A stretch of DNA of 45,721 bases from Clostridia bacterium (lineage in GTDB: Bacteria > Bacillota > Clostridia > TANB77 > CAG-508), in assembly GCA_017409455.1 (NCBI GenBank), contig JAFQSS010000034.1, positions 1-45,721 on the forward strand, read 5' to 3'. Shown here in pieces: positions 2,489 to 45,098 of the stretch (positions are counted from its first letter, which is position 1; each line of letters begins with the position of its first letter). The notes beneath the pieces were generated by a model. The model saw only the letters and a list, made by a program, of their open reading frames with translations, was not told where the DNA came from and searched no databases. The translations under genes were made by a program, and so were the position numbers.

Positions 2489-3211
2489 ATGTCTACACCA
2501 CATAATGAAGCTAAAATCGGTGAAATTGCAAAAACAGTTATTATGCCCGGAGATCCTCTTCGCGCAAAATATATTGCTGAAAACTTTTTAAATGATTATA
2601 AATTAGTTAATTCTGTAAGAGGTATGTATGCATATACAGGAACTTATAAAGGTAAAGAAATTACTGTTATGGCCCATGGAATGGGGATGCCAAGTATAGG
2701 AATCTATAGTTATGAATTATATAAAGTTTATGGAGTTGAAAATATTATACGTATTGGTTCTTGTGGCGCTTATTTACCTGAATTAAAATTGTTTGATATT
2801 GTTTTATCTGAAAAAGTATTTTCTGAAAGTAATTTTGCTTTAACTCTAAATAATGAAGATTGTCATATAGTTGAAGCTGATTATACATTAAATAATATTA
2901 TTAAAGAAACAGCAAATGAAACAAATATTAATATCCATATAGGAAACACTGTTTGTACAGATTGTTTTGATGTTTATATGACTGATGTTAATCAATTTCT
3001 AGCAAGAGTTCCAGAAGGATTTAATCCTGCTTCTGCTGAAATGGAAGCATTCGCTCTTTTCTATGTTGCTAAAATGTTAAATAAAAAAGCTTCTTGCTTA
3101 ATGAGTGTAGTTGATTCTAAATATATTAAAGATATTGCTACTCCAGAAGAACGCCAAACTGGTTTAAATAATATGATTAAATTAGCTTTAGATAGTAGCT
3201 TAAAAATGTAA
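2489..3211 (+). CDS. deoD: Purine-nucleoside phosphorylase, DeoD type
   Basis: Cleaves purine (deoxy)ribonucleosides with phosphate to free base and (deoxy)ribose-1-phosphate, the purine salvage step. The 240-residue length fits the hexameric DeoD class. Visible motifs are the N-terminal phosphate-binding MPGDPLRAKYIA, the family segment GMGMPSIGIYSYEL, RIGSCGAY, and the substrate-binding ASAEMEAFALFYVA followed by SVVDS. AAGGAGG lies 8 bases before the ATG. It is a plus-strand gene with its own promoter, and a long palindrome starts in its stop codon. In other Firmicutes purine phosphorylase genes are often near xerD/spoIIM; here those genes are 17 kb away. Confidence 0.95.
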   Translation: MSTPHNEAKIGEIAKTVIMPGDPLRAKYIAENFLNDYKLVNSVRGMYAYTGTYKGKEITVMAHGMGMPSIGIYSYELYKVYGVENIIRIGSCGAYLPELKLFDIVLSEKVFSESNFALTLNNEDCHIVEADYTLNNIIKETANETNINIHIGNTVCTDCFDVYMTDVNQFLARVPEGFNPASAEMEAFALFYVAKMLNKKASCLMSVVDSKYIKDIATPEERQTGLNNMIKLALDSSLKM

Positions 3212-3260
3212 AATTGGGGACGGTCCTTTCTTTCGCGAAAAAAAGGACCGTCCCCAATTT
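3211..3260. repeat. Nested palindrome, copy 1; convergent terminator
   Basis: A 50-base near-perfect palindrome: 19-bp arms 3211-3229 and 3242-3260, and a tip that is itself palindromic (TTTCGCGAAA). Each arm holds a smaller palindrome, GGAC-G-GTCC. It fills the gap between the convergent deoD and argS stop codons, so it probably terminates both. Related copies are at 8567-8618, 28170-28219 and 34315-34353. Confidence 0.85.
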
Positions 3261-8552: not shown

Positions 8553-8566
8553 TTTAAGTTTATGCG

Positions 8567-8618
8567 TAAAAAGAGACTAGGTCTATTTTTACGTATAAAT
8601 AGACCTGGTCTCTTTTTA
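8567..8618. repeat. Nested palindrome, copy 2; terminator of the GH18 gene
   Basis: A 52-base palindrome. The arm segments 8573-8588 and 8597-8612 differ at one position (a possible G-U pair), outer A/T runs extend the stem, and the centre is TACGTA. Each arm has an inner palindrome (AGAC-TAG-GTCT and AGACC-T-GGTCT). It starts 5 bases after the GH18 stop and ends in TTTTT on the minus strand, so it can act as a rho-independent terminator. Confidence 0.8.
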
Positions 8619-8623
8619 CTTTT

Positions 8624-10306
8624 TTATTTTTGTAATTCTTCTCTAATTATAGTCCAGATATTAGATGTTTCCATATCTTTTCTCCAAGCTGATGTTCCAC
8701 CTAAATTATATTTTGTGACTAAAGAAACTTTTTCTTTAATTGACCTTCCATCTTCAATCCACATTTTTATTGTATTTTTTCCTGATTTGTATTCAATATA
8801 ATTTTGTTTTAATGTATCATCCCATTGTTTTTCAACATTATTAGGAATTTTAATATTCATCATGCTAACAACACCTCTGTCTTTTATAGTTCCGTCTGAA
8901 GCAATTATCCATTGTCTTGTATAAAAAGGTAGTCCTAAAATAATTTTTTCAGTATCTACTTCATCATATTCTATGATTTTTTTCAAACTTGTTTCTACCC
9001 AATTAAGACCTGCTGTTGTCCCCACTTTTGAGCCTGAGTTTCCATGTTGGTCATATGCCATAAATACTAAGTAATCTGCAACATCGCCTATTACATTTCT
9101 ATCATAACATTCAGACCAATTTTCACCACCATCTGGTGCAGTCACATCAACAGATAGTACTATTCCCATTTCTTGCATACGAGGCATTAGTTCGATTATA
9201 AATCTTGAAAATTTATCTTTATCAGCTTTATACATGTTTTCAAAATCTATATTTATTCCATCTATATCATATAATGCACATTTTTCAACTATACTTTGTA
9301 TTAATTCTTGTCTTTTTGTATAACTATTTAATATATTTGATGTTATTTTAATTCCTGCATCTGCATTTGAAATCATAGGCCATACTTTATATCCATTTGA
9401 ATGAGCCCAATTTATATATGCAATTCCTGCTGTCCCTATATTTTCTTTTAATGTTCCATCATTTTTATCTAAGTAAAAGAATGCTGGTGATACTACATTT
9501 ACACCTTCTACTGTTTGGCCAGTTCTATCTGGTGCTTTAACATATTCAGAAAAGTAATCCCAAAACATATTTACTTTTCCTGTAATTTGCTTTTGTTCTA
9601 TCTCTTCTTCTCTTATTGTTTTGATATTTTCAAGTTTATTTGTTTTTATATAACCTATTTTTCCATTTTCAGTTCTAACTTTAACCCATTTCTTACCTTC
9701 TGATATAGATTCACTGTCTATTACTATGACTGTTGAACCTTTTTTAATTTTTTCAACTGTTTTTGAAAAAACTTCATTATTATTTTTCACAGTAACATTT
9801 GATTTTACATTTGCTTTTACTTGTTTTCTATCTAAAGAGTCTAATGTTATGGTTTTAGATTCTTCTATGTTGGTTAATTCTACATTATATACTTCTAACA
9901 TCTCTGATATTGGTAAATAAACTGTTTCTCCATCTTTTATTGCACTTGCATTTGTTTTTCTGATAGACCCATTTAAGGTCATTTTATTTGCATCAAATCC
10001 TATACTAGCAATTTTATTATTATAGGTTGTTATTACTTCATTTGTTTCTTCCTCTGTATAGATATATTTATCAAAGAAATTTTCTATATCATCTAGAGAA
10101 ACATATATTACACCATCTTGTATTTTTATCTCATGTTTTAATCTTTCTGTCACATTTCTGCTGTTTATCACCAAATTTATTCCGTCAATTTCTTTTACTT
10201 TTATAAAGTTTTCTGCTTTAACTAGTATAAAGATTGCTACAAGCAATATAGCCAATACTATTGCTATTCTTTTTATTACATTTATATTTATTTTTCTCTG
10301 TTTCAT
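8624..10306 (-). CDS. Membrane-anchored GH18-family protein with SH3 domain
   Basis: A likely wall- or spore-associated N-acetylglucosaminidase of the YaaH/SleL-like branch of GH18. The 560-residue product has an N-terminal membrane anchor (about 10-30), a copper-amine-oxidase-N-like region (about 40-160), an SH3b domain (about 165-225), and a GH18 barrel from about 245 with DGINIDFE at 349-356, where Glu356 is the predicted proton donor. The barrel text (VDVTAPDGG, MAYDQHG, GLPFYTRQW) is well conserved. AAGGAG precedes the ATG. Its 3' end abuts palindrome copy 2; upstream lies the lexA terminator. The substrate (vegetative wall or cortex) cannot be decided from sequence. Confidence 0.9.
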   Translation of the reverse strand: MKQRKININVIKRIAIVLAILLVAIFILVKAENFIKVKEIDGINLVINSRNVTERLKHEIKIQDGVIYVSLDDIENFFDKYIYTEEETNEVITTYNNKIASIGFDANKMTLNGSIRKTNASAIKDGETVYLPISEMLEVYNVELTNIEESKTITLDSLDRKQVKANVKSNVTVKNNNEVFSKTVEKIKKGSTVIVIDSESISEGKKWVKVRTENGKIGYIKTNKLENIKTIREEEIEQKQITGKVNMFWDYFSEYVKAPDRTGQTVEGVNVVSPAFFYLDKNDGTLKENIGTAGIAYINWAHSNGYKVWPMISNADAGIKITSNILNSYTKRQELIQSIVEKCALYDIDGINIDFENMYKADKDKFSRFIIELMPRMQEMGIVLSVDVTAPDGGENWSECYDRNVIGDVADYLVFMAYDQHGNSGSKVGTTAGLNWVETSLKKIIEYDEVDTEKIILGLPFYTRQWIIASDGTIKDRGVVSMMNIKIPNNVEKQWDDTLKQNYIEYKSGKNTIKMWIEDGRSIKEKVSLVTKYNLGGTSAWRKDMETSNIWTIIREELQK

Positions 10307-25900: not shown

Positions 25901-27007
25901 CTATAAGTAAGTTCTTGTGATATTACTATCTACCAACATAGGACTAACTTCAAATCTAACTTCATCATTTACTTTAACACTTTTTTCTGTCACATCTACA
26001 CTTACATGAAACATTCCCAATCTGCCAAGCACTTTGAATTTTTCTCCATTTATTGTTACGTTTATTTGTTGTTTCTTAAATGAATCTTTAATATCTCTTA
26101 TAATATATCTTAATTTGTCTATTGGTCTAAACATATCTCTATCTACTTTAACATTAAATCCATCTGCATAACCACATGGTACTATTGCAATTTTTGTTTC
26201 TTTTTTTGTTGTAAATGAATTTGAATATCCAATATTGTAACCAGCTGGTAATGTTTTTATATCAGCAACATTTGATTTTAGATATCCTACTTTTTTAAAT
26301 CCCCATTTGTTTGGAATCGATAACCTTCCTAGTAATACAGAACCTACTCTTACAGCATTTAAATGCATTTCTGGAAAACGTAAAAACGCTGATGAATTAC
26401 ATATATGTAACATGCTAGGTTCTATGTTATTGTCTTTCAAAGTTTGTACACATTCTAAAAATCTGTCATATTGTTGTCTAGACTCTTTTCCATCGCCAAA
26501 AAATGCAATAGAAAAATGTGAAAATACTCCTTCTATTTGTATGTTTTGCCATGAGTTTATTGCATTTATGATTTCTTGTGATTTATTATATATAAAACCA
26601 TATCTTCCAAAACCTGTATCTATTTTCAGATGAACTCTTACTTTTTGGTTTAATTCTTGAGCAACTTCATCTACAGTTTCTCCAGATTCTTTTGAACCAA
26701 TTGTTAATATTATATTATTTTCTATTAAAGTTTGAACATCTTCTTTTACTGCTGTTGATGACATCATTAGTATATCTTGCTTAATTCCATTTTCTCTTAA
26801 CTTAATAGCTTCTTCTACTGTTGCTACTGCAAAAAAATCTACTCCATTATCTGCTAAAAATTGTGCATATTCTACTAATCCCAATCCATACCCATTTCCT
26901 TTTATTACTGCTATTATTTTAGTTTCTGGGTTGTTTTTTTCTGCAATTTCTCTTACTATTTTTAAATTATCTCTTAATTTCTGAGTTTCTACAACTAATT
27001 CTTTCAT
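25901..27007 (-). CDS. alr: Alanine racemase family protein
   Basis: PLP enzyme predicted to interconvert L- and D-alanine for peptidoglycan. The 368-residue protein has the PLP lysine Lys36 in AVIKGNGYGLG, the PLP-contacting Arg in AVRVGSVLLGRL, and a tyrosine in NIGYSNSFTT at the place of the second catalytic base. The C-terminal beta domain departs from typical Alr: the usual VSMDQ-like segment reads VSVDVTEK. It could therefore be a racemase with another substrate, but the context (a FemX-like lipid II peptide transferase gene just upstream) favours a wall role. AAGGAG precedes the ATG. Confidence 0.85.
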   Translation of the reverse strand: MKELVVETQKLRDNLKIVREIAEKNNPETKIIAVIKGNGYGLGLVEYAQFLADNGVDFFAVATVEEAIKLRENGIKQDILMMSSTAVKEDVQTLIENNIILTIGSKESGETVDEVAQELNQKVRVHLKIDTGFGRYGFIYNKSQEIINAINSWQNIQIEGVFSHFSIAFFGDGKESRQQYDRFLECVQTLKDNNIEPSMLHICNSSAFLRFPEMHLNAVRVGSVLLGRLSIPNKWGFKKVGYLKSNVADIKTLPAGYNIGYSNSFTTKKETKIAIVPCGYADGFNVKVDRDMFRPIDKLRYIIRDIKDSFKKQQINVTINGEKFKVLGRLGMFHVSVDVTEKSVKVNDEVRFEVSPMLVDSNITRTYL

Positions 27008-27015
27008 AATACTCC

Positions 27016-28071
27016 TTACTTTTTAAATTTAGTTTTTAATCCTCTAAGATTTCTAAATGTTTTTTCAGAAAATTTATATAGTGAATAAGTTAATGGTTTG
27101 AATGGTATATAAATTTCTCCTATAAATTCTGTAAATGTTGCTCCAAATCCTTTTTTAAATCTATATAACCCATATTGTGGATGGTTTTCATCCACTACAC
27201 CAGACACTCCTCTAAAATCATATATATCATCATTTCTTGCAATCGCCATTTTTATCATTTCCCATTGCAATAAATAATTTGGCATTAAATTTCTATGTTC
27301 ATTGCTACTTGCTCCATATAAATACCATGTTTTGTTTCCATAGAAAATTGGAATTACTCCTGATATTGGCTTGTCCTCATGATATGCCATCAAAAGTTTC
27401 ATATGATTAGGGGCTAACTCATCATACATTTTTTCGAAATATGATAAAGGCCTTATAATAAATCCGTCTCTTGCTCCTGTTTCAACCATTATTTTGTGAA
27501 ATTCTTTTAAATCTTCTCTTGTACCTTCTTTAACTACAACACCTTTTTTAGTTGCTAAACGTACATTGTATCTTGTTTTAGAATGAAACCCTGCAAATAT
27601 TTCATCTTCATTTTTCCCTTTAATATCTAATCTAAATACATATCTTGGCTGAATTTCTTCTCTAAAGTTTTTGGCATCATCTTTTATTTTATATCCTAAG
27701 CTTGTAACTACTTTTCTAAATTCTTCGTCACTGCTTTCTATGTCTGGTTCTGCTTTATATACTATAGCTTTATATTTTTTTGCCAATTCTTTTATTCCAT
27801 CTGTTAACTGCTTCATGACTTCTATATCATGAATATCACATATTGGACCTCTTGAAGAATACATTATATTTCCAAAAATCGGTATTTTTCTTATTAATAC
27901 ATTAACTGCTCCTATTATTTTCCCATTTTCATCTTCAGCTAATACTGTTTCATTTTTCCAATTTGATTTAACTTTTGCCCATTCTGGTGATTGTTGAAAA
28001 TTACATCTTTCATGATTTTCTAAAAATTCTTTATATTCATTTTGACTTTTTTCATCTGTTACAAATCTCAT
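27016..28071 (-). CDS. FemX/FemAB-like peptidyltransferase
   Basis: Uses aminoacyl-tRNA to add residues to the lysine or meso-DAP side chain of lipid II or the wall peptide. The 351-residue protein has two GNAT-like halves; recognisable segments are NFQQSPEWAKVKSNW near the N-terminus, IMYSSRGPICDIHD, VVKEGTREDLKEFHKIM, and DFRGVSGVVDENHPQYGLYR then FKKGFGATFTEFIGE near the end. The lengthy coiled-coil insertion of staphylococcal FemA is absent, as in FemX. It starts the operon from the promoter at 28123-28151. The amino acid added cannot be read from sequence. Confidence 0.88.
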   Translation of the reverse strand: MRFVTDEKSQNEYKEFLENHERCNFQQSPEWAKVKSNWKNETVLAEDENGKIIGAVNVLIRKIPIFGNIMYSSRGPICDIHDIEVMKQLTDGIKELAKKYKAIVYKAEPDIESSDEEFRKVVTSLGYKIKDDAKNFREEIQPRYVFRLDIKGKNEDEIFAGFHSKTRYNVRLATKKGVVVKEGTREDLKEFHKIMVETGARDGFIIRPLSYFEKMYDELAPNHMKLLMAYHEDKPISGVIPIFYGNKTWYLYGASSNEHRNLMPNYLLQWEMIKMAIARNDDIYDFRGVSGVVDENHPQYGLYRFKKGFGATFTEFIGEIYIPFKPLTYSLYKFSEKTFRNLRGLKTKFKK

Positions 28072-28122
28072 TCGTTTTTACCCTCATTTCTTCATCTTTT
28101 TAATTATTCACTTTTTGCCTTA

Positions 28123-28151
28123 ATTTTACACTAAATATATTAATTTTACAA
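28123..28151 (-). promoter_or_regulatory. Promoter of the femX-to-xerD operon
   Basis: Minus strand TTGTAA (28151-28146), 17-base spacer, TAAAAT (28128-28123), about 52 bases before the FemX-like start and just after palindrome copy 3. Confidence 0.6.
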
Positions 28152-28169
28152 GACTTTTTTAAAAAAAGA

Positions 28170-28219
28170 AAAAAGGGACCAGGTCCCAATTTGCGCAAAA
28201 AGGGACCTGGTCCCTTTTT
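28170..28219. repeat. Nested palindrome, copy 3; terminator after DUF5665
   Basis: A 50-base palindrome with perfect 18-bp arms (28170-28187, 28202-28219) and tip TTTGCGCAAA. Each arm is itself a palindrome: GGGACC-A-GGTCCC and GGGACC-T-GGTCCC. It overlaps the DUF5665 stop codon and is followed on the minus strand by long T-runs, so it can terminate. It is the most regular of the four copies. Confidence 0.9.
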
Positions 28220-28493
28220 ATCTATTTAATCCTTCAACAATCTCAACAATATCAGTAATAAACCTACCTACCCATGGTAAGTTTAATCTTACAAGTCTTT
28301 GTAAAAAATATATAATTATAGCTGTAACAACTGTTACACCTATTCCAAATCCCATACCACGAAAAATTCCGGCAAGAAAATTTCTTTTTATAATCTCTTT
28401 TTTGCTACCTAACAAATCTATCAATTGTTCTATTCTCTTTTTCTCTAAAAATCTTAATAAACGTTCAATATTATCATTCAGAATTTTCTTCAT
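28218..28493 (-). CDS. DUF5665-like small membrane protein
   Basis: A 91-residue protein with a charged N-terminal helix (RLLRFLEKKRIEQLIDLL), a glycine-rich turn (AGIFRGMGFGIGV), one membrane helix (VVTAIIIYFLQRLV) and an amphipathic C-terminal helix. This matches the small DUF5665 family of Firmicutes, whose function is unknown. The ATG has GGGTGG 9 bases upstream, but that ribosome site is inside the terminator hairpin of the preceding UPF0182 gene. Its stop codon overlaps palindrome copy 3. Confidence 0.8.
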   Translation of the reverse strand: MKKILNDNIERLLRFLEKKRIEQLIDLLGSKKEIIKRNFLAGIFRGMGFGIGVTVVTAIIIYFLQRLVRLNLPWVGRFITDIVEIVEGLNR

Positions 28494-28496
28494 AAA

Positions 28497-28535
28497 AAAT
28501 AACCACCCTAACCCTTATAGTTAGAATGGTCATTT
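28497..28535 (-). terminator. UPF0182 terminator hairpin covering the DUF5665 ribosome site
   Basis: A 16-bp stem, complete if G-U pairs are allowed (minus strand 28535-28520 with 28512-28497), 7-nt loop, then a T/A run. It begins next to the UPF0182 stop. Its second arm carries GGGTGG, the only ribosome site for DUF5665, so folded RNA would both end transcription and hide that site. Confidence 0.65.
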
Positions 28536-28536
28536 T

Positions 28537-31272
28537 TTAATAATTTATTACATTTTGGAAAAGAGAATTTGTTTCATTTTCCTCCATCATCTTTTCTAAT
28601 AAATCAATTAAACTTTGTAAGTTTTTCATATCACTACCTATCATTTCCCAATCATTTCTGTCAGTAGATTCTGTAAGATTTTTATTTGCATTTATAATAG
28701 CTTCTATAAGTCCTTCAATGTCTTCAGTAGTATTAACTTCAATATTTACTGCAGATTGAGATAATAAATTAGTAATAGCCTCTCTTAATGTATCTCCTAT
28801 TGCAACTTTTGTACCTGATGCTACTATAACTTTTTGTAATGTTGTAGATGCATCTGGTTCATTTGTCATTGTTTGATAAATTGTTTCAATATATAAAACT
28901 GTATTGTTTATTGGGATTATTTTCATTTCTTTCGAAATTTTACTTCCTGCAACACTTAATGTTTCAAGTTCAGCTGAAATAGTTTCATCTTGTTCAATTT
29001 GATTATCTAGTTGACTTGGTCCTAAAATATTACTGTCTTTTGGGTATTTGTAAATCTTCAGTTTACATTCTGTTCCATTACATATTCCAACAAGATAAGA
29101 TGTTATATTAGATTTACCGTTCTGAGTATACATTTGAACTAATCCAAATTCTGATTTTTCACTTTCTGGTGTTTTTATCATTGCTCCATAAGGCTTTAAT
29201 GTGGCTTTTTTGTTTTTGGTTGTTGAAGTTCCATATGTTGCTAATGACCATATGTCGCTATTTCTATATAATATATCTTCTTTTACATTATGATATACTT
29301 TAAGCATTTTTGATTGAACTTCATACAAAAATTCCGGATATCTAAATTGTGATTTTATTGTTTCTGGAATTTCTTCACCAGTATAGTCTGAAAATATTGT
29401 TGGATAAAGTTTCAAATATGCCATAATTATTGGGTCATTTCTGTCTGTAATATAAAATGTCATTTCTCCACTATATGCATTTATTATTACTTTAACAGAA
29501 TTTCTAATATAATTTATATTTTGTTTCGAACCATCATATACAATGTCAGTATATGTTGAATATGGATATTGATTAGATACTGTATATCCGTCTAAGACCC
29601 AATATATTTGTCCTTCATCTATTACTGTATATGGATTTTCATCATATATTAAATTTGGTAATACAGTTTTTGCTCTCTCTATAATATTTCGATTTGTCAG
29701 GATTTTACTTTCATCTGTTACGTTTGTTGATATAGCTAGTTTTATATCACCATTTCGTATTGCTAATATTAATCTATCTAAAAATCCCACTTGTATCCCG
29801 GAATTCCCTGCATAATTGTATATATGTTCTACACCATCATTATCAGTATAATCATATTCAGTTTTATTTTTGGTATTTGTAACAGCTGTACTAGTTGTTT
29901 CTAATCCGTAATATATTCTAGGTTCTTTTATTTCATATATGTTATCCTCTCCAGTAATATCTTTTTGTATATATTTGACGTTACCTTCTTCTGTTACAGA
30001 TGTTGCAGATGCAACAATTTGTCCAATTCCATGTGTGTATTCATATGTTTTATTATCATATGATATTCCGGAATCTGCAATTTCTCTTGGAGAAACATAT
30101 ACTAATTGTTCTTTTCCATTAATTTCATATTTGGTAAGTGCTGCATTTCTATAATTATAATATCCCGCTTCTGTTTGCGTATCTTCTAAACTTTCAAGAA
30201 CTAAATCTTCATTTACTAGTGTTATATTATCTATAACATCAGAGTTCTTATCAATCTCTTTTTCGTCAATTGTTCCAGAATATTCTATATTCATTTCTTC
30301 GACTTTTATATTGAAAGCTTCTTGTGTAGATTTGATATTTTCTTTTATATATGTTCTTTCTGCATCAAATTCATTTGGATTTACGAAAATCAAATCATAT
30401 CCTACCATAATTAAAAATAAAGCAACTAAATATATTGGTACAGCCATAACTGTATAAAGTATCTTTTTATTTTGATTTTTTACAAAGTATCTTACTGACA
30501 TAATTGCTGCAATAATTATTACTATTGCAAGTCCTATATATCCCCACAATTGTATTGTTGACTCTACAGTTCCTGCACCTGTTAATTCAGTTCCATTACT
30601 TAATGTCAAAAATGTTCCTGTTACAATATTTTGTGTATTTAATACTGTTTGTGTCGCTATTGCAACAGCTAAAATAATTACATTTCTTAAAACTTTTTTT
30701 ATCAATTTACTTTCACGTAATAAAGTTCTATCTATAGCTTTAAAATATACATTAAATACAACTATATAATATAAAGCCATATATAAACTTAATCCAATGA
30801 TTAATTTTATAAAATAACTTATTAAAGTTTCTATTAATGGTCTAATAAACATATAATATGATATATCTAAATTAAAGATTATATCTGTTTCATAAAAAGA
30901 TGCATTACTTATAAATAATAGTACTTTTTCTAATAGATTATTAGATATTATTACACTTACAATTGCAGCTATTATTAATGTTATAGATTTATTAGGCAAT
31001 TTAGGTACTTCTTGCTTTTCATCTTCAAAAAATGGTTTTAATCCTTTTTTTATCCCTCTATTAGTAAAATATAATATTATACTTAGAAATATAAATGTTG
31101 TTCCCATTATTGAATATTTATATTTTATGTCTGTAAAAAACTTTTGTATATATTGTTCACCCAATTCAAAATATTCCAAATATTGTCCTCTTAGTGTTAT
31201 ATATGTTACTAACAAATATACTGCAATAAATGCTATTACAAGTATAGCTCTTGTTTTTTTACCAATCTTCAT
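28537..31272 (-). CDS. UPF0182 family membrane protein
   Basis: Large membrane protein of unknown function (COG1615/UPF0182). The 911-residue product has about seven N-terminal membrane helices (to about residue 300), then the diagnostic segment FVNPNEFDAERTYIKENIKS and a large extracellular domain with conserved text such as YVSPREI, QIYWVLDGYT and YIRNSVKVIINAYSGEMTFY. The C-terminal part has an acidic region followed by ELETLSVAGSKISKEM and a helical end. AAGGAG precedes the ATG. It directly follows ftsY (10 bases) in the unit starting upstream of glmM. Confidence 0.9.
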   Translation of the reverse strand: MKIGKKTRAILVIAFIAVYLLVTYITLRGQYLEYFELGEQYIQKFFTDIKYKYSIMGTTFIFLSIILYFTNRGIKKGLKPFFEDEKQEVPKLPNKSITLIIAAIVSVIISNNLLEKVLLFISNASFYETDIIFNLDISYYMFIRPLIETLISYFIKLIIGLSLYMALYYIVVFNVYFKAIDRTLLRESKLIKKVLRNVIILAVAIATQTVLNTQNIVTGTFLTLSNGTELTGAGTVESTIQLWGYIGLAIVIIIAAIMSVRYFVKNQNKKILYTVMAVPIYLVALFLIMVGYDLIFVNPNEFDAERTYIKENIKSTQEAFNIKVEEMNIEYSGTIDEKEIDKNSDVIDNITLVNEDLVLESLEDTQTEAGYYNYRNAALTKYEINGKEQLVYVSPREIADSGISYDNKTYEYTHGIGQIVASATSVTEEGNVKYIQKDITGEDNIYEIKEPRIYYGLETTSTAVTNTKNKTEYDYTDNDGVEHIYNYAGNSGIQVGFLDRLILAIRNGDIKLAISTNVTDESKILTNRNIIERAKTVLPNLIYDENPYTVIDEGQIYWVLDGYTVSNQYPYSTYTDIVYDGSKQNINYIRNSVKVIINAYSGEMTFYITDRNDPIIMAYLKLYPTIFSDYTGEEIPETIKSQFRYPEFLYEVQSKMLKVYHNVKEDILYRNSDIWSLATYGTSTTKNKKATLKPYGAMIKTPESEKSEFGLVQMYTQNGKSNITSYLVGICNGTECKLKIYKYPKDSNILGPSQLDNQIEQDETISAELETLSVAGSKISKEMKIIPINNTVLYIETIYQTMTNEPDASTTLQKVIVASGTKVAIGDTLREAITNLLSQSAVNIEVNTTEDIEGLIEAIINANKNLTESTDRNDWEMIGSDMKNLQSLIDLLEKMMEENETNSLFQNVINY

Positions 31273-31282
31273 TTTATTCTCC

Positions 31283-32188
31283 TTAAATTATAGCTTTAGC
31301 AAAATCTTTTGAATCGAATATTTCCATGTCATCAATTTGTTCACCAACACCAATAAATTTTACAGGTATTTGATTTTCTTCAACTATTCCTATAACAGCT
31401 CCACCCTTTGCTGTTCCATCTAATTTAGTTAATACTATTCCAGTTATATCTGCTTGTTCTTTAAATGCTTTTACCTGTGATATTGCATTTTGTCCAGTTC
31501 CTGCATCTATTACTAGCAACACTTCTTTCGAAGCATCAGGCATTTCTTTATTTATTACTTTTTGAATTTTGTTTAGCTCGTCCATCAAGTATTTTTTGTT
31601 ATGCAATCTTCCAGCAGTATCACAAATTAATATATCTGCTCCAATTTCTCTTGTTTTTGCAATTGCATCATACACTACTGATGCTGGATCAATTCCTTCT
31701 TCTCTTTTTACAATCTCAGCTCCTGCTCTTTTAGCCCATATTTCTAGTTGTTCTACTGCAGCAGCTCTAAATGTGTCAGCTGCTGCAACTACTACTTTTT
31801 TTCCATCTCGTGATAATCGTGCCGCCATTTTTCCTATTGAAGTGGTCTTTCCTACACCATTGACTCCTATTACTAATATTACTGATGGTTTTGTTTCAAG
31901 TTTTAATGAATTGTCTGATATTTCTAATATTTTTTCAATTTCTTCTCTCAAAGTTTGTTTTACTTGTTCTTCATCTTCTATTCTTTCTTTTTTCATTCTG
32001 TCTCTTAAATTTGATATTATCTTTGTTGATGTTTCTATTCCTATATCTGACATTATTAGTGCTTCTTCTAGCTCTTCAAGAAATTCTTCATCTACTTTTC
32101 TGAAATTACTAAATACGTCATTTATTTTCCCATTTATTGACTCTTTTGTTTTTGTTAATCCCTGTTTTAATTTATCAAAAAATCCCAT
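31283..32188 (-). CDS. ftsY: Signal recognition particle receptor FtsY
   Basis: GTPase that docks SRP-ribosome complexes at the membrane for co-translational insertion. The 301-residue protein is the short form, lacking the long acidic A domain, with N and G domains. GTPase motifs: G1 GVNGVGKT, DTFRAAAVEQLE, G3 DTAGRLHN, G4 TKLD followed by GTAKGGAV, and the closing GVGEQIDDMEIFD. GAAGGAT precedes the ATG. It is coupled to glmM upstream and UPF0182 downstream, with gaps of 17 and 10 bases. Confidence 0.96.
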   Translation of the reverse strand: MGFFDKLKQGLTKTKESINGKINDVFSNFRKVDEEFLEELEEALIMSDIGIETSTKIISNLRDRMKKERIEDEEQVKQTLREEIEKILEISDNSLKLETKPSVILVIGVNGVGKTTSIGKMAARLSRDGKKVVVAAADTFRAAAVEQLEIWAKRAGAEIVKREEGIDPASVVYDAIAKTREIGADILICDTAGRLHNKKYLMDELNKIQKVINKEMPDASKEVLLVIDAGTGQNAISQVKAFKEQADITGIVLTKLDGTAKGGAVIGIVEENQIPVKFIGVGEQIDDMEIFDSKDFAKAII

Positions 32189-32205
32189 TTGAATCCTTCT
32201 TCCTT

Positions 32206-33570
32206 TTATTTACAATGTTTTTCAATTAAATCACACAATTTCCTTGCTTCTGATTCGATAACTGATTTGTCTTGTCCTTCAATCATAACTCTAACAAGAG
32301 GTTCCGTACCTGAAGGTCTAATTAAAACTCTACCATTGCCTGAAAATTCATTTTGAAGTTTTTCAATTGCCTCTTTAATTTCTTCATTTTTTTCATAATC
32401 ATATTTTTTATCTGATGAAACTTTTGCATTTATTAAAACTTGTGGATATTTTTGCATCATGTTGCTTAACTCAGAAGCTTTTTTTCCACTTTCTAATATA
32501 GCTTGAATTAACATTAATGATGTTAATATTCCATCACCTGTAGGATTATAATCTAATAAAATTACGTGTCCAGATTGTTCTCCACCTAAATTATATCCAT
32601 TTTTTAGCATTTCTTCTAAAACATATCTGTCTCCTACTTTTGTTTGAAGAAGTTGAAAATCATTATTTTCTGCATATATATTTAATCCCAAATTGCTCAT
32701 AACAGTTGCAACAATAGTATCTTTAGATAAAAGACCTTTTCCCTTTAAATATTTTGATATAATTGATAACAATTTATCTCCATCTATTTCTTCTCCATTT
32801 TCATCAACTGCCAAACATCTATCTCCATCTCCATCATATGCAATTCCCAAAGTCATTTTATTCTCAACAACATATTGTTTTAAAATTTCTAAATGTGTTG
32901 AACCACATCCATCATTAATATTTATTCCATTTGGATTATTGTTTATAATTACATGATTTATTCCCAATGTATTAAATATTTTGTCAGCAACTTCATATGT
33001 AGCTCCATTAGCAGTGTCTATAACTACTTTAAAATCTGTTCTATTGAATTTTTCTATATTATCATCAAAGTTTTTTCTAAAGAAATATACATATTCATCT
33101 AATAAATCTGTCCTTATTTCTGACACTCCGATTCTTTCATTTACTGCTGATAATTCATCAAGTTTTCCTGAGTCCATTACTTCTTCTATTTCTTCTTCTA
33201 TATCATCAGGAATTTTAGTACCTTTATTACTAAAATATTTGATACCATTAAATTCAAATGTATTATGTGATGCAGATATTACAACACTTGCATCAGCTTG
33301 TAATTTTCTTGTTAAATATGCTACAGCTGGTGTTGGTATAACTCCTAACAATTTTACATTTGCTCCATAACTTAAAAATCCCGCTACCATTGCACTTTCT
33401 ATTAAAGTTCCTGATAATCTAGTATCTCTCCCTATTAATATTGTTGGAGCCTTATCTGTGTGTTTTGACAAAACATATGCACCTGCTTTTGCCACTCTAT
33501 ATACTAATTCAGGTGATAATTCTGTATTTGCGATTCTACGAATTCCATCTGTCCCAAAATATCTTCTCAT
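32206..33570 (-). CDS. glmM: Phosphoglucosamine mutase
   Basis: Converts glucosamine-6-phosphate to glucosamine-1-phosphate for UDP-GlcNAc and the wall. The family signature opens the protein (RRYFGTDGIRR), the phosphoserine is Ser101 in SASHN (99-103), the metal loop is DGDGDR (about 242-247), and the substrate loop GGEQSGH and phosphate-binding RPSGTEPLVRVM follow. The 454-residue length is normal. I start at 33570, with GAGGAA just upstream; a GTG four codons earlier would overlap that site. It lies between the unknown membrane protein gene and ftsY. Confidence 0.96.
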   Translation of the reverse strand: MRRYFGTDGIRRIANTELSPELVYRVAKAGAYVLSKHTDKAPTILIGRDTRLSGTLIESAMVAGFLSYGANVKLLGVIPTPAVAYLTRKLQADASVVISASHNTFEFNGIKYFSNKGTKIPDDIEEEIEEVMDSGKLDELSAVNERIGVSEIRTDLLDEYVYFFRKNFDDNIEKFNRTDFKVVIDTANGATYEVADKIFNTLGINHVIINNNPNGININDGCGSTHLEILKQYVVENKMTLGIAYDGDGDRCLAVDENGEEIDGDKLLSIISKYLKGKGLLSKDTIVATVMSNLGLNIYAENNDFQLLQTKVGDRYVLEEMLKNGYNLGGEQSGHVILLDYNPTGDGILTSLMLIQAILESGKKASELSNMMQKYPQVLINAKVSSDKKYDYEKNEEIKEAIEKLQNEFSGNGRVLIRPSGTEPLVRVMIEGQDKSVIESEARKLCDLIEKHCK

Positions 33571-33585
33571 ACATTTCCTCACTTT

Positions 33586-34290
33586 CTAGTCGATTACTTG
33601 ATTTACTAAATTATAATACTCTGTCATACGAAATAAATTAGTAAATTGTATTTTATCATTTTTTATTATCCAAGAATCTTCATTTTCTTCAAGAAATACT
33701 TTTATTTTTTCTAATTTATTAAGCTTTTCATATAACCTAGCTTTTTCATTTTTAACTTCTTCTTCCAAATCTTGATATTGTTTTTGCATAACTTCACTAA
33801 GCATTATTTCCTTATATACATTTATATAATAATCATTCCTTACTGAAACATCTATATTTTCAGTACTTTTTAATATTTCCTGTTCAGTAACAAGTTCTTC
33901 ACATTCTTTTATAAGATTTTGACTTTTTTCTTTATATTCTTTTATTATATTATCTATTTCATCCATTTTTTTATCTTGTACATTTTCTGTAGAAAATATT
34001 GAATTTGGATTTATTCCTAAAACCAATTCTTTCATTTCTACATGTATATTCTTAAGGTGTGATAGGTATTCTTTGATTGCTTTTTCAACTTCAGCATAAT
34101 CTTTTTCTGTTTTCACATTTAAATCAATTTTATCATCTATTAAGTTTGTTTGTAATATTTTATTTACTTCCTCTGTTAATAAACTTAATTGCAGTGTATT
34201 AAATTGACTATAAAAATATGATAATCCTATTAATGCAATAATTAATGCTATTAGTATTACTATCGCTATCTTAGTTTTTTTATTCTCCAT
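33586..34290 (-). CDS. Uncharacterised membrane-anchored coiled-coil protein
   Basis: A 234-residue protein with an N-terminal membrane helix (IAIVILIALIIALIGLSYFY, about residues 8-27) and a long, Glu/Lys-rich, mostly helical domain that would lie outside the membrane. No cysteines form a pattern, and no catalytic motif is visible. I do not recognise the family. The ATG at 34290 has AAAGGA upstream; the frame continues into palindrome copy 4 but that part is not coding. It is followed 15 bases later by glmM. With no promoter seen between it and glyQS, it may be expressed by readthrough. Confidence 0.8.
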   Translation of the reverse strand: MENKKTKIAIVILIALIIALIGLSYFYSQFNTLQLSLLTEEVNKILQTNLIDDKIDLNVKTEKDYAEVEKAIKEYLSHLKNIHVEMKELVLGINPNSIFSTENVQDKKMDEIDNIIKEYKEKSQNLIKECEELVTEQEILKSTENIDVSVRNDYYINVYKEIMLSEVMQKQYQDLEEEVKNEKARLYEKLNKLEKIKVFLEENEDSWIIKNDKIQFTNLFRMTEYYNLVNQVID

Positions 34291-34314
34291 TTTATTTTTT
34301 CCTTTCGTGAAATT

Positions 34315-34353
34315 GGGACCTGGTCCCTTTTTTCGCAAAAAGGGACCGGGTCT
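34315..34353. repeat. Nested palindrome, copy 4, after glyQS
   Basis: Left arm GGGACC-T-GGTCCC (34315-34327) plus T-run, 3-nt tip CGC, then A-run and a right arm AGGGACCGGGTCT that has diverged but still pairs using G-U. It lies 17 bases after the glyQS stop. No T-tract follows on the minus strand, so termination here may be weak and allow readthrough into the next gene. Confidence 0.75.
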
Positions 34354-34369
34354 GTTTTTATGCTTTTAC

Positions 34370-35752
34370 TTAAAATCGAATCTTTTCTCCTATCCATTTT
34401 TCTAATTCATCAATTTTTACTCTTACTTGTTCCATTGTGTCTCTATCTCTAATTGTTACTGTATTATCTTCTAATGTATCAAAATCTATTGTTACACAGA
34501 ATGGTGTTCCTATTTCATCTTGTCTTCTATAACGTTTTCCAATCGAACCTGATTCGTCATATTCACACATAAATTTCTTTGATAAATTTGAATATACTTC
34601 TTCTGCTTTTTCTGATATTTTTTTTGATAATGGAAGTATTGCCACTTTATATGGAGCCAATGCTGGATGTAAATGTAATACAGTTCTTGTATCTCCTTCT
34701 GCAATTTCTTCTTCATCATAACTATTACATAAAAACGCTAATGTCACTCTATCTGCACCTAGTGATGGTTCTATACAATATGGTATATATCTTTCATTTG
34801 TTTCTGGGTCTAAATATGTAAAATCTTCTTTTGAAACTTCCATATGAGATTTTAAGTCAAAGTCTGTTCTATCAGCAATTCCCCATAATTCTCCCCATCC
34901 AAATGGGAATAAAAATTCTATATCTGTTGTAGCATTACTGTAATGTGATAATTCTTCTGGAGAATGATCTCTTAATCTAATATTTTCTTCTTTCATTCCT
35001 AATCCCAATAGCCATTCTTTGCAGAAGTTTTTCCAATATTCATGCCATTCCAAGTCTGTTCCTGGTTTGCAGAAAAATTCTAATTCCATTTGTTCAAATT
35101 CTCTTATTCTAAATGTGAAGTTTCCTGGAGTTATCTCATTTCTAAAAGATTTTCCTACTTGAGCAATTCCCATTGGTAATTTTCTTCTTGTAGTTCTCAT
35201 TACATTTTTAAAGTTAACAAATATACCTTGAGCTGTTTCTGGTCTTAAATAAATTTCTGCTTTAGCATCTTCAGTTACACCTTGAAATGTTTTAAACATT
35301 AAGTTAAATTTACGGATATTTGTAAAATTGTTTTTTCCGCAGTCTGGACATGGAATTTTATTATGTTCTATAAATTTTACTAATTCTTCATCTGACATTC
35401 CATCAGCAATCATGTCATTTCCATTATTATGAGCCCATTCTTCTATTAATTTATCTGCTCTGTGTCTTGTTTTACATTCTTTACAATCTATTAATGGATC
35501 TGAAAATCCTCCAACATGACCTGATGCGACCCAAGTTTGTGGATTCATTAATATTGCTGCATCCAAACCTACATTATATTTACATTCTTGTACAAATTTT
35601 TTCATCCATAATTTTTTTACGTTGTTTTTTAACTCTACTCCTAAAGGACCATAATCCCATGTGTTTGCTAATCCTCCATAGATTTCTGAACCAGGATATA
35701 CATATCCTCTTGCCTTACATAAATTTACGATTGTTTCCATTGATTTTACCAT
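34370..35752 (-). CDS. glyQS: Glycyl-tRNA synthetase (single-chain, dimeric type)
   Basis: Class II enzyme charging tRNA-Gly. The 460-residue protein is the eukaryote/archaea-like homodimer type, not the GlyQ/GlyS tetramer. It begins [19 protein letters not shown] and [13 protein letters not shown], with two CxxC zinc-like pairs (CKEC, CPDC), motif 2 [20 protein letters not shown], and motif 3 in [14 protein letters not shown], then an anticodon-binding domain. GGGGGA lies 8 bases before the ATG. Expression is predicted to be controlled by the T-box leader at 35785-36008, which reads uncharged tRNA-Gly. Confidence 0.97.
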
Positions 35753-35784
35753 AATAAATTCCCCCTATTCTATTTTTTTCGCCA

Positions 35785-36008
35785 GAAAATCAAAATAACT
35801 CTCATCCCTAGCATAAATAAACTACGCTAGGGACGAAAGTTATATTCCGCGTTTCCACCCTAATTCTTAAAACTTTATATTTTAAGCACCTTAATTCTCA
35901 TTATTACTCCAAAGCTCCCCTTATGTTTCATATTGCTAACTTCCACCAACTGTTAGCTCTCTTAGAACAATCCACATAATTTTTCTTCTTCATCGTAATT
36001 ATTAAATT
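35785..36008 (-). promoter_or_regulatory. T-box riboswitch (Gly) leader of glyQS
   Basis: The leader has the T-box signature AGGGTGGAAACGCGGA on the minus strand (35861-35846). Its bulge UGGA pairs with the UCCA end of tRNA-Gly (discriminator U). Stem I closes with ATTAC/GTAAT (from 35999), followed inward by TTATG/CATAA; between them the 3' side of the internal loop holds GGGGAG, so the specifier is a Gly codon, GGG or GGA. The terminator at 35791-35843 follows the antiterminator sequence. This fills the 300-base gap between glyQS and the protease gene. Binding of uncharged tRNA-Gly would allow readthrough. Confidence 0.92.
35788..35843 (-). terminator. T-box terminator hairpin
   Basis: An 18-bp stem (35843-35826 with 35812-35795), GC-rich at its top (CCCTAGC/GCTAGGG), 13-nt loop, then TTTTGATTTT on the minus strand. 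It competes with the T-box antiterminator just upstream. Confidence 0.85.
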
Positions 36009-36014
36009 GCCTAT

Positions 36015-36043
36015 ATTATATTACTTTGTTTTAAAAATGTCAA
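36015..36043 (-). promoter_or_regulatory. Full-consensus promoter of the T-box/glyQS unit
   Basis: Minus strand TTGACA (36043-36038), 17-base spacer, TATAAT (36020-36015). It starts 10 bases after the stop of the protease gene, with no terminator between them. Confidence 0.8.
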
Positions 36044-36052
36044 TATTTTTTA

Positions 36053-38803
36053 TTATATATCAAGATATTTAAATCTGTTATATGCAAATACAGCAATTAC
36101 TATAACAGCAATTATCATTAATATAATTGCAATACTTAAACCTGCATTAGGTAAATCTCCTGAGGCTGTAGTATCATCTTCTTTGTTTTGGCTATTATTT
36201 ATTGTACCATTTATTTTATCTGATATATCTTCTTCTACTTTAAGGTCAATTTCAATAGCTTTTGTAACAATTTGGCTCTTACTGTTTCCATCTAATGTTG
36301 CAATTTCTTTAATATATAAATATAAGTTATCTGAATTCATTAGTTGAGATATATTAGGTAAAGTTCTTGAGTCTATATTTATTTTCAAAGAATATGTTCC
36401 ATCACTTTGTTTTGTCATATTATCTAATGTTATTTCTGTCCAATATTCATCTTTTATGTTACTTTCTCCTTGAGTTCCTGATATATACCAATAATATTTA
36501 TATTCTGATTCTTCATCTCCTTTATTAATTCCATTTATATTTAAAGTCATTGTATAATAACCATTTTCATTAACACCTGATATTTCCATATCTATTAACA
36601 TTGCTTTTGAGTTGTCAAAGTCTGATAATATTGGCTGTTTTTCTTCTGGTTGCTCGTCATCAGGTTCTTCTATTATTTCCTCTTGCACAACAATTGATTG
36701 TGTTGTCGTTTTTGTTATTTCTCCGTCTGTATAACTAATTGTTACTGTAGTTTGGCCAAGTTGTAAATTTGCACCATTTATAATAGTTATAGCATTTGTA
36801 ATGTCTCTTTCTTCCTGTCTTGCCGAATTACTATATATAGCTTTTACTACCATACCTGTGGCATCAAAATTGTCACCAACATAATATGTAACTGTGTCCG
36901 GTACTTGTGCTATTCGAATTTCTTGTAATTCAAGAGCTTCAGGTTCTGGATCTGGTTCTTCTGTTGGTTCATCTGGCTGTTGTATTTCAGATATATTGTT
37001 AGTAAATGCTTTTATTGTTACATTTCCGTCACATTCCTGTTCGGCTAAATCAGTAGTATCTACCCATGTAGTACCATCAGTTGAAACAAAACTTTCATTT
37101 TCATTAACAACAGCATTCGCAAAAGTAGTATCAGGGATAGGACGTTCTATAGAAACATACTTGTAGTATGAACTATTTGTTATTTCTACCACGACCGCAA
37201 ATGTATTCCCTGTCAATTCAATAGGTTCTGCAAATTCGATTGTATGATATCCGGGTTTTATATTAATTGTGTTATCTGAATTTCCTTTTGCTAAAGTTGC
37301 TTCTTCTAAATTTGCATCAAGAGAACTTCCATTTGGATTAACTTTTACTTTACATATATATTCTTGATCTGTATATAAACTTATTTTTGTTAATTCCTCA
37401 TCTTTTTGTATATCCCTTGAGAAAACATTTGCCATATACATAGGGGCATTTGTTCCAACAGATGCTTGAATAGCAGAAGAAGATCCTAAATGATCATGTT
37501 GATATATATTATCATAATCTACACCGTCTTTTGCATTTTCAATCCCCCACAAGTAATCATATACATTAACATCATCATAAGAAACATACATATAACCTTT
37601 ATTTCCTACTTCTAAAGTTATAGTATCACTTGCTGCACCAATAGACACTTTTGTTTCTCCATATTCTTCTTTAAGTAATTCTAATATAAATTCATTTGAT
37701 ATCTCTTCTGCTGAATTACATCCTTGTTGATTAAAATAACTCTTATTGGCTTCATATAATGATGTTTTAAATTTTGATAAAGATTCTGTCATATAATCTC
37801 CCCAAGAATTTTTTATTATCCAAGCCCCATAGCTATCAGGCACACAATTAGAGTTAAATTTGTTCACATAGTTTTCATCATCTGTAGGTTTGTTAAAGTT
37901 ATCGTCCCAACCTATTATTAAAATAGCGTGATTCATAGGAGCTGAATAACTATTATTACAATATATCGCTCCTGTTTCATTGTTATAATAATCTGACATA
38001 ATTTGAGCACCATGTATTCCAGCATATATTCCACCATAATTTGTAATATAGCTTTTCATTTGTGCAATTAATTCTGCATTTGTTGTTTGACTATCTGTTT
38101 CAAACAATGTAGTATCTAAAAGTGTTGTAACTATATCTTTTTTACTTTGTACTACACTTATGTCTATACTTCTTTCTGTATTTTCAAAAGGCATATCTTC
38201 ATCTAAAATAGCTCCATTTCCAGTTGACAAATATTGTTCTACCATAAAATAGTTTCCACCATCTGATACAGAACTATTAAATGCATATAAATTGTTTGTA
38301 CTATTTAACAAAGATTTATTTGCAGCAGAATATGCCATATGTCTTTCAGAAAAATCATATTCTATATCTTCATTAGTGCTTTTATAGTGTTTTAATGCTA
38401 AATGAGATTCTAAAGTTGCAGTTCCTGCAAATGCCCAGCACATATTAGTTTGTTCTTGATTTTTTATTTTAACACTTTTCGAAATATAATCTTTTAAATT
38501 ATAATATGTATTACTAGAAGATTTTAATAACTCAGCCACTTTTATTTTGTTATTAATTCCTTTTAAATATGTAGAATAACTAGTTTCATATTTTACATCA
38601 AATCTTCGTGGTTCAAGTCTATTATTTCTCTCATCTTCAGGCAATTCAAGCCATTCTTTATATTCTTCTGTGTATTCTTGTTTTGTGAATTTTTCTATAG
38701 GATTTTCACTTTTTGCAAATACTTGTGTTTGTATAAGAATTATGCCAAGTAATATTATAAAAAATAATACTTTCATAATTGATTTTTTTCTGTTGTTTCT
38801 CAT
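36053..38803 (-). CDS. Secreted papain-family (C1A) protease, surface-anchored
   Basis: The 916-residue protein has a signal peptide (about 1-30), a C1A protease domain with Cys122 (TNMCWAFAGTATLE), His in MNHAILIIGWDD (about 293) and Asn in IIKNSWGDYM (about 335), then a lectin-like beta domain, a Big_3-type Ig-like domain (TVTYYVGDNFDATGMVV), a further beta-rich domain, and a C-terminal LPNAG motif, membrane helix and basic end (RFKYLDI). LPNAG departs from LPxTG, so sortase attachment is possible but unproven; plain membrane anchoring is the alternative. AAAGGAGG precedes the ATG. It is monocistronic. Substrate unknown; roles in surface proteolysis are inferred. Confidence 0.9.
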   Translation of the reverse strand: MRNNRKKSIMKVLFFIILLGIILIQTQVFAKSENPIEKFTKQEYTEEYKEWLELPEDERNNRLEPRRFDVKYETSYSTYLKGINNKIKVAELLKSSSNTYYNLKDYISKSVKIKNQEQTNMCWAFAGTATLESHLALKHYKSTNEDIEYDFSERHMAYSAANKSLLNSTNNLYAFNSSVSDGGNYFMVEQYLSTGNGAILDEDMPFENTERSIDISVVQSKKDIVTTLLDTTLFETDSQTTNAELIAQMKSYITNYGGIYAGIHGAQIMSDYYNNETGAIYCNNSYSAPMNHAILIIGWDDNFNKPTDDENYVNKFNSNCVPDSYGAWIIKNSWGDYMTESLSKFKTSLYEANKSYFNQQGCNSAEEISNEFILELLKEEYGETKVSIGAASDTITLEVGNKGYMYVSYDDVNVYDYLWGIENAKDGVDYDNIYQHDHLGSSSAIQASVGTNAPMYMANVFSRDIQKDEELTKISLYTDQEYICKVKVNPNGSSLDANLEEATLAKGNSDNTINIKPGYHTIEFAEPIELTGNTFAVVVEITNSSYYKYVSIERPIPDTTFANAVVNENESFVSTDGTTWVDTTDLAEQECDGNVTIKAFTNNISEIQQPDEPTEEPDPEPEALELQEIRIAQVPDTVTYYVGDNFDATGMVVKAIYSNSARQEERDITNAITIINGANLQLGQTTVTISYTDGEITKTTTQSIVVQEEIIEEPDDEQPEEKQPILSDFDNSKAMLIDMEISGVNENGYYTMTLNINGINKGDEESEYKYYWYISGTQGESNIKDEYWTEITLDNMTKQSDGTYSLKINIDSRTLPNISQLMNSDNLYLYIKEIATLDGNSKSQIVTKAIEIDLKVEEDISDKINGTINNSQNKEDDTTASGDLPNAGLSIAIILMIIAVIVIAVFAYNRFKYLDI

Positions 38804-38834
38804 TTTTTACAATTTCCTCCTTTTATATACCTTT

Positions 38835-38863
38835 ATCTTACCATAGTTCTCTTCTCCATTCAA
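38835..38863 (-). promoter_or_regulatory. Promoter of the C1A protease gene
   Basis: Minus strand TTGAAT (38863-38858), 17-base spacer, TAAGAT (38840-38835). Upstream of it a 9-bp inverted repeat, TGTCAAAAT/ATTTTGACA (38870-38878 and 38906-38914), could be an operator. Confidence 0.5.
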
Positions 38864-38963
38864 CAATGTTGTCAAAATGTAAAGAACTTGTAATGTTTTT
38901 GTAATATTTTGACAATACTTGTTTTTTACAAAAAATTTATCTTATATTTTTTCTTTAAAACTA

Positions 38964-38992
38964 TTGTCAAATCCAAAATCTTGTGTTAATAT
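38964..38992 (+). promoter_or_regulatory. Promoter of tRNA-Trp
   Basis: Plus strand TTGTCA (38964-38969), 17-base spacer, TAATAT (38987-38992). A second possible -10, TATAGT preceded by TG, lies at 38995-39000. The tRNA begins at 39011, so either gives a short leader. Confidence 0.5.
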
Positions 38993-39010
38993 GTTATAGT
39001 AATTTGATTT

Positions 39011-39085: not shown

Positions 39086-39087
39086 AT

Positions 39088-39124: not shown

Positions 39125-39136
39125 TTTTCAGTAGAG

Positions 39137-39740: not shown

Positions 39741-39765
39741 ATTAGTGTTTAAAGGAGATGATTTA

Positions 39766-41457: not shown

Positions 41458-41465
41458 AAAGAAAT

Positions 41466-45097: not shown

Positions 45098-45098
45098 G

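Follow-up and report, generated by a model that had tools for sequence, protein, structure and literature searches.

Nested palindromes at gene 3' ends in a Clostridia genome: two dispersed repeat families probably mobilised by RAYT-type transposases

The window analysed here, the whole stretch of 45,721 nucleotides from a Clostridia bacterium (TANB77; CAG-508), carries four nested palindromes at the ends of genes, which are copies, some of them decayed, of two dispersed repeat families, named A and B. These palindromes very probably belong to the short non-autonomous repeats known as REP/REPIN elements and are moved in trans by the genome's own Y1 HuH transposases of the RAYT/TIRYT lineage. 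Both families are scattered over the genome and are largely specific to this species, one B copy fills a gap that holds no such repeat in any comparable relative, B repeats flank a RAYT gene on both sides, and across the genus the terminal inverted repeats (TIRs) of RAYT genes co-vary with the transposases. That the enzymes act on the repeats, that family A also has a RAYT of its own, and that A copies terminate transcription would complete this picture.

The four palindromes described in the first-pass annotation were found in place, both by direct reading and by an inverted-repeat search, with their nested plan as described and their ends slightly shifted. The features concerned are the following.

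3211..3260, no strand: family B element, two inverted half-sites of GGGGACGGTCC-N5-TTCGCG, 0 mismatches on both strands
3216..3237, plus strand: B half-site
3234..3255, minus strand: B half-site
2489..3211, plus strand: ORF of 240 aa that terminates at the B element
8566..8619, no strand: A-type element, diverged, with the stop of the ORF at 8624-10306(-) about 5 nt away
8624..10306, minus strand: ORF of 560 aa that ends beside the 8566 element, used in the comparison of neighbouring genes
28170..28219, no strand: family A element with two arms, an inverted pair of self-complementary units with a period of 27 nt, overlapping the stop of the ORF at 28218-28493(-)
28175..28187, no strand: A arm GGGACCAGGTCCC, exact
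28202..28214, no strand: A arm GGGACCTGGTCCC, exact
28218..28493, minus strand: ORF of 91 aa, with its stop codon overlapping the A element
34310..34359, no strand: family A element with an exact arm (34315-34327) and a decayed arm (34342-34354)
34370..35752, minus strand: ORF of 460 aa that ends beside the 34310 element, which we take to encode a glycyl-tRNA synthetase

According to the inverted-repeat search, the arms are 25 nt long with 96% complementarity at 3211-3260, 27 nt with 93% at 8566-8619, and 25 nt with 92% at 28170-28219. The tips of these three copies (CGCG, ACGT and GCGC, respectively) are self-complementary, as had been claimed. The fourth repeat, at 34317-34352, has arms of 16 nt (94%) and a tip without self-complementarity, and is part of a fuller element at about 34310-34359. 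In all four copies the arms are odd palindromes in their own right, GGGACC-N-GGTCCC or variants of it: this sequence is exact at 28175, 28202 and 34315 and has two mismatches at 34342; the 3211 copy contains GGAC-G-GTCC, and the imperfect palindrome GAGAC(C/T)-A-GGTCTA stands at 8567. Also borne out is the presence of a stop codon at or near every copy. The B element sits between the 3' ends of the convergent ORFs 2489-3211(+) and 3263-4969(-), the first of which ends at 3211, and the stop codon 28218-28220 overlaps the 28170 element; the distance is about 5 nt for the 8566 element (from 8624) and about 10-16 nt for the 34315 element (from 34370). With up to two mismatches allowed, GGGACC-N-GGTCCC matches the window at four places, whereas 100 dinucleotide shuffles gave 0.02 matches on average. 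The window also holds eight inverted repeats with 20-nt arms and up to three mismatches, other palindromes included, against a single one in ten Markov shuffles taken together. At gathering scores, the only Rfam match in the window was to tRNA. A further perfect inverted repeat of 24 nt lies at 41473-41526, about 16 nt past the stop of the ORF at 39745-41457(+), with an end of the type GGGACGGAG; this 16-nt end had no match in the 425 loci that were fetched.

The first-pass annotation left it to a genome-wide search whether these are only a few copies, and the answer is that they far exceed a few. In the assembly (1.33 Mb, 34 contigs, 91.9% complete), family A, defined by GGGACC-N-GGTCCC and mostly accompanied by A5/T5 flanks and GCG[TC] spacers, has 66 arm-like places with at most one mismatch, against 2 for the reversed control, and includes the window copies at 28170 and 34310. 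For family B, defined by the half-site of the window copy at 3211, the counts with at most two mismatches are 35 half-sites in forward and 26 in reverse orientation, and none for the control. The decayed copy at 8566 is placed in A by resemblance, as its plan appears to be that of variant arms found elsewhere in the genome, one of them AAAAAGAGACCGGGTCTC next to C8:25299. A total of 62 elements were opened, 46 of A and 16 of B, the 8566 copy being too diverged for the search patterns and therefore outside this set. Among the A elements, 37 have one arm (at most one mismatch), 23 of which passed a filter against a decayed neighbouring arm, and nine have two or more arms with a period of 27 nt; among the B elements, 12 of 16 have two half-sites, and inverted pairs are spaced 18 nt apart. 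Units of both families consist of a hairpin around a GGGAC-type core, whose self-complementary span is 13 bases in A and nine in B, and a spacer of a short A+T stretch plus GCG/CGC. The nested plan thus arises from the pairing of such units in inverted order.

This composition changes the meaning of the variation between the four copies. The claim that the arm sequence varies while the symmetry is kept does not hold as worded, given that the copies belong to two families and include decayed ones. The selection for structure drawn from it finds no backing from covariation within the families: paired columns showed none beyond column composition in 70 A arms (chosen at no more than two mismatches, which limits the power of this test), nor in 23 single A, nine multiple-arm A and nine B dimer elements, and only one of 48 offsets reached p 0.03. 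Compensatory change as a sign of selection for structure was dropped for this reason.

The genome encodes three Y1_Tnp proteins above the Pfam cut-off (L001 on contig C6, L002 on C14 and L003 on C27), so that the RAYT/IS200-like transposase that had been suggested is indeed present, and one of the three genes is flanked by the family of the window copy at 3211. This gene, L003, is bordered by B repeats upstream and downstream, which share an exact inverted match of 24 nt. L001 is flanked by an inverted pair of its own, of 36 nt, which had no further copy with up to four mismatches in the fetched stretches of this genome. The flanks of L002 share an inverted match of only 9 nt; a different, degenerate repeat array flanks this gene, and a decayed A-like nested palindrome starts at its stop codon. 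The arrays on either side of L002 (C14:29328-32660) are of the degenerate GTGAACACGTCCCC and TGCTAGCA types; C14:4458 and C4:15098 hold a few further copies. No RAYT flanked by family A was found in this genome, the degenerate palindrome at the L002 stop being the nearest case, and in eight relatives the 23 exact A copies have none in the surrounding 1.5 kb or so. L002 may, as a guess, be the RAYT of family A, since it groups with L003 as its sister when the 93 distinct RAYTs are placed in a tree (support values left aside) and A and B share their layout.

The three proteins are 252-260 aa long from the chosen start and carry a C-terminal extension, which is present in all 13 RAYTs that were aligned. 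The HuH and catalytic tyrosine columns (H60, H62, Y119) are invariant in this alignment. A profile of the 13 proteins found E. coli TnpAREP (4er8, E 9.6e-6) as its sole relative in the PDB; L003 alone found no chain up to E 1. All 13 match the NCBI model of REP-associated transposases, NF047646, the three proteins of this genome at 57-67 bits, under the curated cut-off of 80 bits. Pfam helix-turn-helix matches in the extensions are weak (HTH_23 in two of the 13, HTH_Crp_2 in one at 2.5e-4) and absent in the three own proteins. In alignment A1, one RAYT protein weakly matches NadA models.

The link between transposase and repeat extends to the whole genus. Around Y1 matches, 108 loci were opened (59 from the own-genome search and a list of 71 rows, plus 49 from a longer list). 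In 96 of these, an ORF of 180 aa or more passed a HuH/Y motif filter, and 93 of the 96 are distinct; the 12 loci that were dropped (L019-L026, L045-L047, L067) hold short, broken or other-type Y1 genes. Since a strict palindrome scan of the flanks yielded little, a search for inverted matches was used instead. Among the 93 distinct RAYTs, 75 have flanks (up to 350 nt each) that share an exact inverted match of 14 nt or more, against 4-15 of 93 with cross-paired flanks and 0-4 with Markov shuffles, and 60 of the 75 flank repeats contain GGG[AT]C or its complement. The similarity of these TIRs falls with RAYT distance (n=75, Spearman rho -0.34, with none of 999 permutations as low), a correlation to which closely related loci contribute. 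In G056 and G058, which have other families with the A core, there is in each case a RAYT whose TIR holds the GGGACCAGG core; they are the only two of the eight relatives with the exact A core to show that core in a RAYT TIR. The RAYT TIR of G217 has GGGACAATTGGG, or part of it, in common with the dispersed repeats, as to some extent do those of G104 and G214, and in G061, G085 and G216 the opened RAYTs show no A-core match in the TIR. Some RAYTs (L039, L040, L061) have TIRs with a different core, TTCCGGGTTT, that recurs between species. In many species the RAYT gene is located directly upstream of another gene (L028-L031, L237-L262 and others), presumably radA judging by how its product starts, which suggests a fixed, inherited location.

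Both families are largely confined to this species. Nine of the 210 genomes in the genus, among them this one, have the exact A core, with 46 copies here, 10 in G058, and 3, 3, 2, 2, 1, 1 and 1 in the remaining genomes; the reversed control had one match each in three of the 210. The 23 copies in the relatives are mostly nested palindromes too, but with different outer arms, such as GGGTCCATT-core-AATGGACCC in G058 and the GGGACAATT-core-AATTGTCCC types in G104, G214 and G217. One insertion site is apparently shared by two species (L191 in G104, L213 in G214), and there the palindrome has T at its centre in one species and A in the second, as though the element had been inverted. The B pattern is present in 14 of the 210 genomes, again including this one, with at most 14 matches elsewhere (G077), and all matches outside this genome have one or two mismatches and mostly a different outer stem.

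The orthologous gaps that could be compared in relatives speak against copies present at the same sites in all of them, which the first-pass annotation had named as the mark of ordinary terminators. For the gaps of the window, 21 relatives with the locus were compared per gap, and both neighbours face each other across the gap only in one locus (L115, G006, gap 8566), where the gap of 192 nt contains other hairpins and no A-type element. In L096 and L102 both genes of the 3211 gap are present and arranged otherwise, and among the 24 of 80 named loci that were checked, none had both neighbours of a window gap. The conserved operon gap between gatC and gatA (genes named by eye) was substituted, where a B copy at C3:3101 lies in a gap of 74 nt. 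The gatA comparison matched 192 of the 210 genomes, and the best 30 of the 192 loci comprised this genome and 29 relatives, one of which was excluded as it lies at a contig edge. In all 28 comparable relatives the gap is free of any GGGGAC-, GGACSGTCC- or GGGACC-type repeat, and nine of them have gaps of no more than 40 nt, which points to one lineage-specific insertion of B at this site. A different repeat, of the type GGAACC/GACCCC, and an extra ORF-like stretch are found in the gatC-gatA gap of one genome (L403, G128). The evidence from empty sites thus consists of one B site in 28 relatives and one decayed A-type site, that at 8567, in its sole comparable relative.

The position of the elements relative to genes was described in a sample of 51 patches of this genome (174 kb, window included, with simple ORF calls), which were picked around matches and RAYTs and are therefore not random. 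The 62 elements comprise 43 in tandem, 11 in convergent, 4 in divergent and 4 in unresolved contexts; for comparison, the gene pairs of the window are 34 tandem, 3 convergent and 3 divergent. Among the 55 elements with a flanking stop codon, 41 lie 0-40 nt after it, five overlap a called ORF and nine lie further away, the median distance being 7 nt. The A core is within 5 nt of the stop in 16 of the 40 cases with a resolved stop, meaning that the A-rich arm of the element touches or overlaps the stop codon, and A copies often supply that codon themselves (TAAAAAGGGACC...). In tandem contexts the stop, rather than the next start, is the nearer of the two for 24 of 30 A elements (p 0.0014) and for four of five B elements (p 0.375). 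Many B copies directly precede a Shine-Dalgarno sequence; a target preference of B for such sites was considered and set aside, since short operon gaps would explain this position too. A TTAACA-type sequence before the Shine-Dalgarno sequence was found at 13 of 29 sites beside an element and at 6 of 273 elsewhere, counts in which overlapping matches are included repeatedly.

Folding both as RNA and as DNA gives a single long hairpin for each element, with z-scores of -4.9 to -11. For the 28170 copy, the long hairpin is preferred over two small ones in RNA (-35.3 vs -18.8 kcal/mol) and in DNA (-21.8 vs -12.5 kcal/mol), and the four-way junction that had been proposed as an alternative was rejected on this basis. 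The first arm of this copy alone (RNA, -11.2) could nevertheless form first while it is being transcribed. The RNA hairpin of the composite A unit reaches -18 kcal/mol, and the sequence of family A has the GC-rich hairpin followed by a U-tract, which is lacking in the B elements examined. A terminator scan restricted to 26000-45721 gave 10 sites, against a shuffle mean of 3.8, including A copies at 28197-28219, 28187-28175, 34315-34327 and 34316-34353. Thus, A copies resemble bidirectional intrinsic terminators and B copies do not; having a GC-rich hairpin with A and T tracts, the A copies probably act as bidirectional terminators as well. The suggestion that the palindromes are terminators spread by a Y1 (RAYT) transposase, like REP sequences, is supported in its main idea. 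Dispersal, the presence of RAYTs and species specificity speak for it, while the GTAG mark of REPs is absent, family B has no U-tract, and terminator activity and transposition are both predictions.

The resemblance to terminators raises the question of whether these could be ordinary, immobile intrinsic terminators whose hairpins became alike by convergence. The GC-rich stem of the A units with its A5/T5 flanks and stable hairpin, the terminator-scan hits on A copies and the crowding at stop codons would all be accounted for in this way. Convergence is nonetheless very improbable, because it would have to produce dozens of near-identical copies in one species, with the exact A core in only eight of the 209 other genomes, and it leaves aside the B elements, which lack a U-tract and stand on both sides of a Y1 transposase gene. 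Ordinary terminators would also be expected at the same sites in relatives, whereas the B copy between gatC and gatA is found in 0 of 28 and the decayed 8567 copy in 0 of 1.

If the repeats are mobile, a different enzyme might still move them, such as a DDE transposase that works on MITE-like ends, and the RAYTs would lie among them by chance. The action of RAYTs on the repeats is deduced from their likeness to known systems, and this genome has yielded no RAYT flanked by A, which leaves some room for such an enzyme; it is a very unlikely one given the B repeats on both sides of L003 and the inverted flank repeats in 75 of 93 RAYTs, which co-vary with RAYT distance. It has been reported that REPs bind IHF, DNA polymerase I and gyrase (PMC6006769, as far as the available part of that survey goes), and the nested symmetry, the self-complementary tips and the near-perfect arms could suggest that the elements are kept as DNA structures, either cruciforms or four-way junctions, to which a host protein binds. 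Single-strand folding of the 28170 copy, which favours one long hairpin over two small ones, and the lack of covariation within families argue against this, and species specificity would go unexplained, making it the least credible of these explanations.

Mobilisation of the repeats by RAYT/TIRYT-lineage transposases also agrees with what is known of other bacteria. In the portion of the 2013 paper by Di Nocera et al. available to us, TIRYTs and TIRtrons are described as RAYT-like genes flanked by TIRs, which are also dispersed as singles, dimers and groups, the dimers in some species, and are in some cases self-complementary; some TIRs carry a GGGGWSAS motif, and the GTAG ends of REPs frequently provide a TAG stop codon (PMC3733652). 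A term search of that paper found no mention of Clostridi- or Firmicutes. The present case is alike in having Y1 genes with inverted repeats on both sides (36 nt in L001, 24 nt in L003, and 75 of 93 RAYTs overall) and TIR repeats that are also dispersed as dimers (12 of 16 B elements with two half-sites). It differs in its core, GGGAC(C/G), which does not always fit GGGGWSAS (GGGGACAG occurs in L001 and one L003 copy, the main B unit is GGGGACGG, and A has GGGACC), in the abundance of two related families in a single 1.3 Mb genome, and in the A5/T5 tracts of the A units. As the marks of this kind of system are found in part, the case would work like TIRYTs and their TIRs.

With canonical REPs and REPINs, the families share palindromic intergenic units, often in inverted pairs, located near 3' ends and sometimes lending a stop codon, together with a Y1 HuH gene beside them, and B with L003 has the arrangement of a RAYT flanked by its dispersed family. 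They do not have the GTAG/GTRG foot, however, the A units are fully self-complementary, and the own RAYTs differ in their length of 252-260 aa with a C-terminal extension. Read by eye in the 62 aligned elements, the common feet of the hairpins are CGTAAAAAGGG in A, and GTGAA, GTTAA or GCGAA before AATTGGGG in B; judged by these sequences, A and B are not canonical GTAG REPs. Non-autonomous derivatives of IS200/IS605 have hairpin-bearing ends that are processed by a Y1 transposase. In contrast to these, the elements described here are only 50-60 nt long and consist of one or two hairpin units without internal sequence.

The available part of a 2018 survey of TnpAY1 proteins (PMC6006769) assigns 20 of 26 described TIRYTs to subclass 2.1, regards this subclass as probably equivalent to TIRYTs, and reports no REP-like sequences near its genes. 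Going by appearance, the own RAYTs may belong to subclass 2.1, as they have the long Y1 protein, the C-terminal extension and the NHxH and Y...NP motifs given for it there. Contrary to that description, a RAYT of such appearance has a dispersed repeat family here. Co-evolution of two TnpAREP groups with their REPs has been described as well (PMC8266576, available in part). No earlier report of such repeats in Clostridia was found in the literature searched, which is no proof of absence, and searches with the letters of the repeats gave eight matches that are all unrelated by title.

By analogy with E. coli TnpAREP and IS200/IS605, the transposase would recognise the folded unit in single-stranded DNA, and its tyrosine would cut and rejoin the unit, so that a copy is inserted elsewhere. 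Copies would persist where they are least damaging, namely in the few bases that separate a stop codon from the signals of the next gene. There, A copies probably double as bidirectional intrinsic terminators, and B copies inside operons, such as that between gatC and gatA, would probably have at most a role in mRNA processing or stability.

The general type of repeat is already known from other bacteria, and these families are a new and well-populated addition to it. Long RAYTs that look like TIRYTs, for which the available part of the 2018 survey reported no REPs (PMC6006769), are here linked to abundant dispersed repeats in Clostridia. With many pairs of RAYT and repeat among its 210 genomes, the genus allows the co-evolution of transposase and hairpin to be tested at scale. 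If A copies terminate transcription, bursts of them would be a source of new transcript ends. A more far-reaching and rather doubtful idea is that, in a RAYT lineage of uncultured Clostridia, the hairpin recognised by the transposase has become a mobile stop-and-terminate cassette. Each A copy could then bring along a stop codon, a U-tract and a hairpin that terminates in both directions, with insertion or retention focused on the last bases of genes. Were this so, species-specific bursts would rewrite operon boundaries, and the sequences of transposase and cassette would change together.
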